Of a stretch of 64,000 nt of DNA, positions 2,680-4,569 are shown one piece after another. Each line of letters opens with the position of its first letter. Position 1 is the first letter of the stretch. A program made the position numbers and the translations under genes. Under the pieces are notes generated by a model, which made no database searches, was not told the origin of the DNA, and saw nothing but the letters and a program-made list of their open reading frames with translations. Source of the DNA: a bacterium 336/3 (GTDB lineage Bacteria > Bacteroidota > Bacteroidia > Cytophagales > Thermonemataceae); contig LJIE01000001.1 of NCBI GenBank assembly GCA_001281695.1, forward strand, positions 2,494,586-2,558,585. The letters are read 5' to 3'.

Positions 2680-3255
2680 ATGAATGACAAAACTGTTCTT
2701 GTAAAAAATATGGTATGTAATCGATGTATATTGGCAGTGGAGCAGACTCTGCAAAGTCTTCAAATACCTTTTTTACAGGTAAAAATTGGAGAAATACAGA
2801 CTTCAACGCCTTTAGAAGATAATCAGAAGCATATATTAACTCAGGAACTTTCTAAAATTGGTCTTGAAATCATTGATAATAAACAAACAGCTTTTATCGA
2901 AAAAATAAAACAACTTGTTATTTTAAAAGCCAGAAATGAAGTAAAAGAAGAAGATAAAAAGAAAAATTTGTCAGTTTATTTAATAGACCATATCCATCAG
3001 GAGTATTCTTATGTCAGTAGTCAGTTTTCAGAAATAGAAGGGAGAACCATTGAAAATTTTTTTATAGAGCAACGTATCGAGAAAGCAAAAGAGCTGTTAG
3101 TTTATAACGAATACAACCTTTCCCAAATTGCCTTTGAATTAGATTACAGTAGTGCTGCCCACTTATCAAGCCAGTTTAAAAAGGTTACAGGGCTTACGCC
3201 ATCCCATTTTAAAGAAATAGGGTCTATGAAACGAAAAGCTCTTGATAAAATCTGA
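2680..3255 (+). CDS. AraC-type regulator with HMA-like N-terminal domain
   Basis: A 191-residue protein. The C-terminal part (about 95-182) is an AraC/XylS double helix-turn-helix domain; the recognisable second helix-turn-helix reads NLSQIAFELDYSSAAHLS and then FKKVTGLTPSHFK. The N-terminal part (1-70) resembles a heavy-metal-associated domain and carries the MxCxxC motif as M11-V-C13-N-R-C16, with the VEQTLQSL helix after it as in copper chaperones. Such a fusion suggests a soft-metal-responsive regulator (inference). It sits 94 bases upstream of a co-oriented Cys-rich peptide gene whose promoter has AraC-type spaced repeats. No metal ATPase gene lies nearby in this window. Confidence 0.85.
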   Translation: MNDKTVLVKNMVCNRCILAVEQTLQSLQIPFLQVKIGEIQTSTPLEDNQKHILTQELSKIGLEIIDNKQTAFIEKIKQLVILKARNEVKEEDKKKNLSVYLIDHIHQEYSYVSSQFSEIEGRTIENFFIEQRIEKAKELLVYNEYNLSQIAFELDYSSAAHLSSQFKKVTGLTPSHFKEIGSMKRKALDKI

Positions 3256-3274
3256 ATCTAAAAATTATATAATT

Positions 3275-3323
3275 CATTCCAAAAGTTGTATAACACATCT
3301 CAAAAGGATAAGAAGTACCTTTG
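3275..3323 (+). promoter_or_regulatory. Candidate AraC-activated promoter
   Basis: CATTCCAAAAG (3275-3285) and CATCTCAAAAG (3296-3306) are direct repeats matching at 9 of 11 positions and starting exactly 21 bases apart, two helical turns, the usual spacing of AraC-family half-sites. Nine bases further on is TACCTTTG (3316-3323), a perfect Bacteroidota -7 element. No TTG sits at the usual 19-21 bp upstream (the nearest is 27 bp away), which fits an activator-dependent promoter. The Cys-rich ORF starts 27 bases downstream. Confidence 0.6.
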
Positions 3324-3349
3324 TATTGTTCATTTAAACAAATACTATT

Positions 3350-3466
3350 ATGTCAAACTTCATTCAAAAAAACCGAAAATCTCAAAATGTTTGTAATTGC
3401 TCACAATGTAACTGTGGGGGAAATTGCTCTACCGATTGCAGTTGTGGTTGTACTTGTTGCAAATAA
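3350..3466 (+). CDS. Metallothionein-like Cys-rich 38-residue peptide
   Basis: A short ORF, ATG at 3350 to TAA at 3464-3466, encoding 38 residues of which ten are cysteines (15, 17, 20, 22, 26, 30, 32, 34, 36, 37). They are arranged as CxC, CxxC and CC motifs in the C-terminal 24 residues; the N-terminal 14 are polar and lysine-rich. There are no histidines and no signal peptide. The composition matches small metallothioneins, which bind soft metals through thiolates. I cannot assign it to a named family. It directly follows an AraC regulator with an MxCxxC motif, has a -7 element at 3316-3323 and a strong terminator at 3476-3517. Cys codons TGT and TGC are both used and the reading frame is uninterrupted. 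Confidence 0.75.
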   Translation: MSNFIQKNRKSQNVCNCSQCNCGGNCSTDCSCGCTCCK

Positions 3467-3475
3467 TTGAGTTAT

Positions 3476-3517
3476 CACCTCTATAAGGTTTAAAAACTTT
3501 ACAGGGGTGTTTTTTTT
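3476..3517 (+). terminator. Rho-independent terminator of the Cys-rich gene
   Basis: A 16-position imperfect stem pairs 3476-3491 with 3494-3509 (13 Watson-Crick pairs, two G-T and one mismatch as read). Eight T residues follow at 3510-3517. It begins ten bases after the stop codon at 3466. The arms resemble the AACCTATAAGGTT repeat seen elsewhere in the window. Confidence 0.75.
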
Positions 3518-3615
3518 AACTTAACATATTTTAAAATGAAAAACTCTCAATCAATCAAGATTTTTGTAATTTTGCATAATCAATTCTCAAAACGAATTAT
3601 ATTCAAGAAAAGAAA

Positions 3616-4569
3616 ATGTTGAAAAAATATTACTCAAAATATGGAGGAATTTTAGTAGGTGGACTCTATGGTTTGTTGATGCGTATTGTTTTTGAATTAA
3701 ACTTTACGGGACATTTTGCTGATTTATTTTCAATAACTTTTGTTTGGTTGCTTCCAATAGTTATAGGCTTAATACCTCTAATATTTTCTCCAAAAGAAGA
3801 ATTAAACGATTGGGAAAAGAGAGTTTATAAGCCAGTACTATCTGTGTTGGTATTTTTTGTATTGTGTTATTGGACTGGACGTGAGGACATTATTTGTATT
3901 ATCATTATATCTATTCCGTTCTTGATTATGGCAGGATTTTCGGGTTTTATTTTGGGTAGCATGATTATGCGTTATAGGAAAAAAAATGGAATTATGTATT
4001 CAGTGCTTCTATTTCCCTTTATTTCAGGACTCATTGAGCCTAATTTTTCAACACCGAAAGAAACTTTTCAAACAACTTCCTCAATCATCATCAAAGCCAA
4101 TAAAGCTAAAATTTGGAAAAATATCATCAGAGTTGATACAATTCAAGAAACAGAATATAAGAAAGGATTTTTTAACTATTTGGGCATTCCAAGACCCCTT
4201 TTTGCAGAATTAGACAAAGATACATTGCAAGGAACAAGGATTGGGCATTTTGAGGGTGGATTGAAGTTTCAAGAAAATATTATAAAATGGGATAAGAACA
4301 ATTTCATAACATTTGATATTCAAATTATACCCTCAACAACAAACAGAACAATATTTGAAAGACATATTCTCAATGAGCAACATTTCAAATTTTTAAGTGC
4401 AACATACAAGCTGAATGAAATCAACAATGAGCAAACAGAACTATTGTTAATTACTGAATATCAACTTGACACAAATATAAATTTTTATGGCGAATTTTGG
4501 GGAAAACAATTGCTAACAGACTTTCAAGAAAGACTAATAGGGGTGATAAAAAATAGATGCGAAAAATAA
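3616..4569 (+). CDS. Membrane protein with C-terminal SRPBCC-like domain
   Basis: A 317-residue protein. The N-terminal 135 residues hold four to five hydrophobic segments (about 10-30, 38-58, 72-90, 95-115, 122-135). The rest, about 155-315, reads like an SRPBCC/START-type ligand-binding fold: it opens with SSIIIKANKAKIWKNIIRVDTI, typical of polyketide-cyclase-like domains (V/I-x-A-x-x-x-x-V/I-W), and closes with a long amphipathic helix. The fusion of a membrane anchor to such a domain is seen in uncharacterised bacterial proteins. The ligand is unknown. It lies downstream of the Cys-rich gene but behind its terminator, so it is probably separate. Confidence 0.65.
   Translation: MLKKYYSKYGGILVGGLYGLLMRIVFELNFTGHFADLFSITFVWLLPIVIGLIPLIFSPKEELNDWEKRVYKPVLSVLVFFVLCYWTGREDIICIIIISIPFLIMAGFSGFILGSMIMRYRKKNGIMYSVLLFPFISGLIEPNFSTPKETFQTTSSIIIKANKAKIWKNIIRVDTIQETEYKKGFFNYLGIPRPLFAELDKDTLQGTRIGHFEGGLKFQENIIKWDKNNFITFDIQIIPSTTNRTIFERHILNEQHFKFLSATYKLNEINNEQTELLLITEYQLDTNINFYGEFWGKQLLTDFQERLIGVIKNRCEK

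Follow-up and report, generated by a model that had tools for sequence, protein, structure and literature searches.

The window analyzed here, a stretch of 64,000 nucleotides from the genome of the bacterium 336/3 (Bacteroidota; Thermonemataceae), carries the gene of an AraC-type regulator and, downstream on the same strand, that of a small cysteine-rich peptide, with a predicted operator and a promoter element between them and a terminator behind (Table 1). A preliminary description of this DNA had claimed a 191-residue AraC protein with an M-x-C-x-x-C motif at residues 11 to 16 and a 38-residue peptide with ten Cys within its last 24 residues; both were found exactly so.

Table 1. Features of the regulator-peptide locus, in window coordinates.
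Feature	Position	Strand	Details
AraC-type regulator gene	2680..3255	+	191 aa; HMA-like sensor domain, residues 1-66; AraC DNA-binding domain, residues 67-191
M-x-C-x-x-C metal-binding motif (M11-V-C13-N-R-C16)	2710..2727	+	residues 11-16 of the AraC regulator
Predicted AraC operator, tandem 16-bp direct repeat with a 21-bp period	3258..3294 (3258-3273, 3279-3294)	+	from scoring and uniqueness in the genome
Bacteroidota-type -7 element TACCTTTG	3316..3323	+	21 bp after the operator
Metallothionein-like peptide gene	3350..3466	+	38 aa; 10 Cys, 5 CxC, 1 CC, no His
Intrinsic terminator of the peptide gene	3476..3518 (about)	+	hairpin and U-run

The regulator belongs to the AraC/XylS family: HTH_18 matches residues 108 to 179 above its cutoff (58 bits against 33.6; E value of 1.2e-15), and residues 67 to 191 align in VIA-align with AraC DNA-binding domains at Z scores of up to 14.2. 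The fold predicted by AlphaFold2 from a 63-row alignment (mean pLDDT, 92.6) runs strand-helix-strand-strand-helix, followed by the AraC DNA-binding domain. Residues 1 to 66 have the ferredoxin-like beta-alpha-beta-beta-alpha-beta order, with a last strand that is only a two-residue E, and align with copper chaperones and the metal-binding domains of copper ATPases at Z scores of about 7 to 7.8. ACT domains score about equally against these residues, so that an HMA domain in the regulator cannot be concluded from the fold by itself. The Pfam HMA model gave no match to the N-terminal domain at E values of up to 1, and NCBIfam CopZ matched residues 4 to 28 weakly (E value of 0.0066, far below cutoff). 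By the model, the domain is nonetheless HMA-like, though outside Pfam HMA. We read it so because MxCxxC lies in the first loop, between strand 5-9 and helix 14-26, its usual place in HMA domains, and is invariant across the metallothionein-linked clade described below (M11, C13, and C16 in 10 AraC homologues). The three nearest AraC paralogues of the same genome, which stand in unrelated contexts, have K-Y-M-V-S-L-R-C for this motif; their first Cys is gone, which leaves the window's protein as the only one of this close group with the metal motif. These paralogues (L173:7729-8286, L174:4948-5505, and L175:4922-5479, with M-V-S-L-R-C where MxCxxC is expected) each have in front of them a conserved short ORF (..EKSKAHIIIELIEYLPK or similar) and possibly represent a non-metal branch of the regulator family.

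The peptide has the composition of a bacterial metallothionein, with 10 Cys in 38 residues, five CxC motifs, one CC motif, and a single aromatic residue. Among the 209 ATG ORFs of 25 to 70 aa in the window, no other combines 6 or more Cys with a Cys content of 14% or higher. No Pfam or NCBIfam family matched it at E values of up to 1, and a PDB profile search returned only EC protein I/II (2kak; E value of 0.39). The peptide's sequence is too variable and too short for a single-protein search, which across 39 relatives recovered only the peptide itself; profile and operator searches overcame this obstacle. The strong terminator attributed to the gene by the preliminary description is borne out by a hairpin of -15.3 kcal/mol (z score of -3.84; 0 of 200 shuffles as good) with a U-run, and comparable terminators occur in L037, L038, L040, L041, and L067. 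A simple promoter and terminator scan of the region yielded nothing useful and overlooked this terminator, since it tests the sigma-70 consensus and strict stems. Positions 3616 to 4569 of the window, 3' of the peptide gene, encode a 317-aa protein with no Pfam or NCBIfam match.

A tandem operator with the repeat consensus CCCAAARTTRTGTAAC starts right after the araC stop codon; an earlier reading of the sequence had overlooked it, along with the conserved synteny. Under a model that excluded the window, the operator reaches 29.1 bits, against best scores of 12.3 ± 2.5 (maximum, 18.9) in 60 simulated Markov-2 sequences of 64 kb, and the 4.7-Mb genome has no other match with three or fewer mismatches (reversed control, 0). 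Pairing the copy at 3279 with a poor copy about 20 bp further on was considered and rejected, as the pair 3258 and 3279 gives a better score and agrees with the 21-bp period. The -7 element that the peptide gene had been said to own is indeed present. At all 14 operator sites, including one before a multicopper oxidase gene (L040) and one before an esterase gene (L039), 20 to 21 bp separate the end of the repeat from a TAnnTTTG-like -7 element; the repeat is diverged at two of them (L002 and L043). This position suggests class II-like activation. In a scan with the operator model, the window's araC had no further operator in front of it, and autoregulation of the gene was rejected on this ground.

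To place the pair among relatives, 80 AraC homologues from genome contigs and 19 from relatives were compared. The closest ones (54 to 62% identity) all have a Cys-rich peptide ORF (6 to 12 Cys) 94 to 170 bp away, except in L039; the loci that pair a close AraC with such an ORF are L002, L003, L037, L038, L040, L041, L042, L043, and L067. Across 857 kb of homologous loci, Cys-rich ORFs within 170 bp of AraC fall in the closest AraC clade with one exception, an antisense Cys-rich ORF inside the AraC gene of L084, and the metallothionein-linked regulators form one clade (SH-aLRT of 97). Comparable peptides occupy the same place in 13 other loci. Their Cys columns are conserved at 31 to 47% identity, 13 of the 14 peptides have at least three CxC motifs, all 14 have at most one His, and the number of Cys ranges from 6 (L042) to 12. 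L039 retains the regulator and the operator, and there the ORF downstream has only 3 Cys and the multicopper oxidase is broken, suggesting that this locus is in decay. Signs of module decay, some perhaps sequencing errors, comprise the broken araC of L067 (L067:5001-5572), the split oxidase (L039:1823-3154), and an oxidase remnant (L135:5064-5198).

The pair has been found in more than a dozen related genomes; pair, operator, and promoter spacing are kept across several families of Bacteroidota. The preliminary description had proposed a synteny search and named the lack of a conserved Cys-rich ORF near homologous regulators as the outcome that would count against it; the search found a conserved ORF. 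When 395 genomes sampled from the phylum were ranked by the peptide profile and by the AraC profile, the same three came out on top both times; one of them (G071) is independent of model building. Weak peptide-profile matches in G078, which lacks a qualifying Cys-rich frame, and G383, where the match lies within a longer frame, have no AraC neighbor and were set aside as noise. HMA-AraC proteins were matched in 167 of the 395 sampled genomes at E values of up to 1e-45. A search of plasmids returned only relatives below 60% identity (38 to 45% among the matches listed).

The DNA itself also leads to the peptide. We searched 395 genomes of the class with a pattern consisting of the repeat and the -7 element, allowing two mismatches, and obtained 12 matches (reversed control, 0). 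Eight have an HMA-AraC gene upstream; at seven of these, a Cys-rich peptide starts 22 to 38 bp after the -7 element, and at the eighth (L185) a CPC-type copper ATPase with an HMA domain lies downstream. L180, L182, and L184 are peptide loci new from this search, and L186 (in G071) had been found earlier through profiles and left out of the operator model. The other four matches all carry two mismatches; a distant relative of AraC is present at one of them (L189).

The sister regulators have a different target. A CPC-type P-type ATPase is encoded in the fetched flanks of 56 of the 72 other AraC homologues from genome contigs, mostly directly downstream on the same strand, and none was present in the first-fetched flanks of the metallothionein-linked loci. 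These ATPase-linked relatives have the same layout with a diverged repeat, in which base identity peaks at lag 21 of all lags tested. The HMA-AraC/CopA loci of Bacteroidota are like the pair described here in architecture, in having a same-strand target immediately downstream, and in the 21-bp tandem repeat before the -7 element; they differ in that the target is a copper ATPase, the repeat is diverged, and the regulators lie outside the metallothionein-linked clade. A longer stretch of G011 contains both, in the order araC-MT-multicopper oxidase-araC2-CopA: CopA (612 bits against TIGR01511) lies two genes further on, behind its own HMA-AraC. The preliminary description had noted the absence of a copper ATPase, which holds both near the pair and in the whole window genome (99.3% complete), where nothing exceeds the TIGR01511 cutoff (best, 278 bits versus 397). 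That the peptide substitutes for CopA fits this genome but was rejected as a general explanation, as G011 and G026 have both. About 4.2 to 4.6 kb after the AraC gene, L065, L078, L082, L088, and L098 encode a 112- to 113-aa protein with 19 Cys, which resembles four-helix copper storage proteins (Csp/DUF326 type) and stands beyond the HMA-AraC-CopA set.

A specific multicopper oxidase, with members 60 to 73% identical to each other, is encoded near the module in L133/L002, L134/L003, L037, L039, L040, and L043, and a remnant remains in L135. In L040 it is divergently transcribed and has its own operator. The oxidase at L040:3569-4885 and its homologues in L133, L134, L037, and L043 are about 440 aa long and begin directly with the oxidase domain; no signal peptide is evident in the sequences read, and enzymes of this type are possibly cytosolic. 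An esterase, which in L039 has its own operator, and a beta-barrel-like protein stand beside the module in L037, L039, and L134 and recur near L182. DJ-1/PfpI proteins, a nucleotide-cyclase-like protein, and a DUF6010 membrane protein recur variously around L043, L067, L134, and L135. The CPC ATPases of the sister regulators, the presence of the pair beside CopA in one genome, and the nearby multicopper oxidase narrow the metal toward copper, which we infer to be the likely ligand. This link rests on relatives, as the window genome has neither a CopA above cutoff nor a module-type multicopper oxidase. It does encode a CzcA/CusA-class pump, and without CopA and the oxidase the peptide may carry more weight there.

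We therefore regard the locus as a two-gene metal-defense module in which a Cu(I)-sensing HMA-AraC activator controls a metallothionein, with a probability of roughly 80%. The preliminary description had proposed a soft-metal-responsive activator with a metallothionein-like scavenger, and from the conserved pair, the operator, and the promoter spacing this appears to be the best reading. Loaded with Cu(I) at its MxCxxC site, the one-component HMA-like/AraC activator would bind the repeat downstream of its own gene and switch on a promoter that has no normal upstream element, in a class II-like manner, with 21 bp between the end of the operator and the -7 element. The promoter would drive one short transcript encoding the 38-residue peptide, an all-thiolate metallothionein that would sequester Cu(I) in the cytosol and perhaps also Ag(I) or further soft metals. 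The common target of the regulator family in Bacteroidota would be a CopA-type copper ATPase, and here the neighboring target would be a metallothionein. The ORFs, their conserved synteny, the predicted operator and its spacing, the terminator, and the clade can be read from the DNA, and the fold of the regulator is predicted from its sequence; binding to the operator, activation rather than repression, Cu(I) as the ligand, and sequestration by the peptide are what we infer from them. A real, conserved, and coherent module is well supported, as are the gene pair, the operator, and the family.

The same architecture could serve another soft metal, with an HMA-AraC that senses Zn, Cd, Hg, or Pb and a peptide that is a zinc or cadmium metallothionein. 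HMA domains and thiolate peptides bind several soft metals, and the window genome combines a CzcA/CusA-class pump with the lack of CopA; the copper ATPases downstream of sister regulators, the multicopper oxidase and CopA beside the module in relatives, and a peptide rich in CxC and devoid of His argue against this reading, which we consider unlikely. Still less probable is a peptide that acts as a thiol redox buffer or delivers metal to the neighboring multicopper oxidase under the same regulator. The adjoining oxidase in six relatives and the spread from 6 to 12 Cys would suit such a role; several genomes, including that of the window, have the peptide without the oxidase, and delivery to an absent partner is unlikely, whereas a redox role retains a small probability.

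That the peptide ORF is untranslated and adjoins the AraC gene by chance is the least credible of these readings, and we give it almost no weight. Short ORFs are common, and the protein-family libraries searched contain no match to the peptide. Against this stand the Cys columns that persist at such low identity, the conserved position, operator, -7 spacing, and terminator, and the recovery of new peptides from the operator alone, all of which uphold the earlier claim that the ORF is not fortuitous.

Known systems offer partial parallels to a copper-sensing activator over a metallothionein. In yeast, the Cu(I)-loaded activator Ace1 turns on CUP1, a small Cu-thionein; the logic is the same as that proposed here, in a eukaryote and with unrelated proteins. 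RicR of Mycobacterium tuberculosis is a CsoR-family repressor released by Cu, whereas the window regulator is AraC-type and outside that family; its sensor is HMA-like and its operator of the activator type. The RicR regulon includes MymT, a metallothionein, and MmcO, a multicopper oxidase, and Cu resistance requires both (PMC10470581). With a Cu sensor over a tiny Cu metallothionein and a multicopper oxidase, it is the nearest functional analogue; in contrast to MymT and MmcO, no homology to a known family was detected for the peptides here, and the oxidase has no evident signal peptide. Cyanobacterial SmtA falls within a Pfam metallothionein family, whereas the peptide here matches no Pfam model. 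SmtA is under SmtB/ArsR-family repressors (PMC7558416; Liu et al. 2004 as cited in PMC11213822). In both cases a metal sensor controls a bacterial metallothionein gene, through an ArsR-type repressor there and an HMA-AraC here. The literature searched, which leaves out most subscription journals, contained no description of an AraC-controlled metallothionein or of the HMA-AraC class, and so speaks only weakly for novelty. AraC goes unmentioned in a 2024 survey of copper genes in the flavobacterium Bizionia argentinensis. The gene pair is real and, as a probable copper-defense module, apparently undescribed.

In a wider sense, and with less assurance than for the module itself, we think it probable that the peptides are a separate lineage of bacterial copper metallothioneins, so far confined to Bacteroidota and unrelated to known families, under a new class of one-component copper activators (an HMA-like domain joined to an AraC DNA-binding domain). 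In this class the operator layout would be kept while the neighboring target is either an ATPase or a metallothionein, and in relatives the regulon would include a multicopper oxidase without an evident signal peptide and an esterase. Few lineages are known to have bacterial metallothioneins, whose sequences are short and change fast and so escape family models and gene finders. The regulator and its operator provide a handle for finding them, as the DNA-only search yielded three new loci and one outside the model. These findings suggest a class of metal-sensing AraC activators, widespread in Bacteroidota, in which one regulator family may command either export or sequestration of metal.
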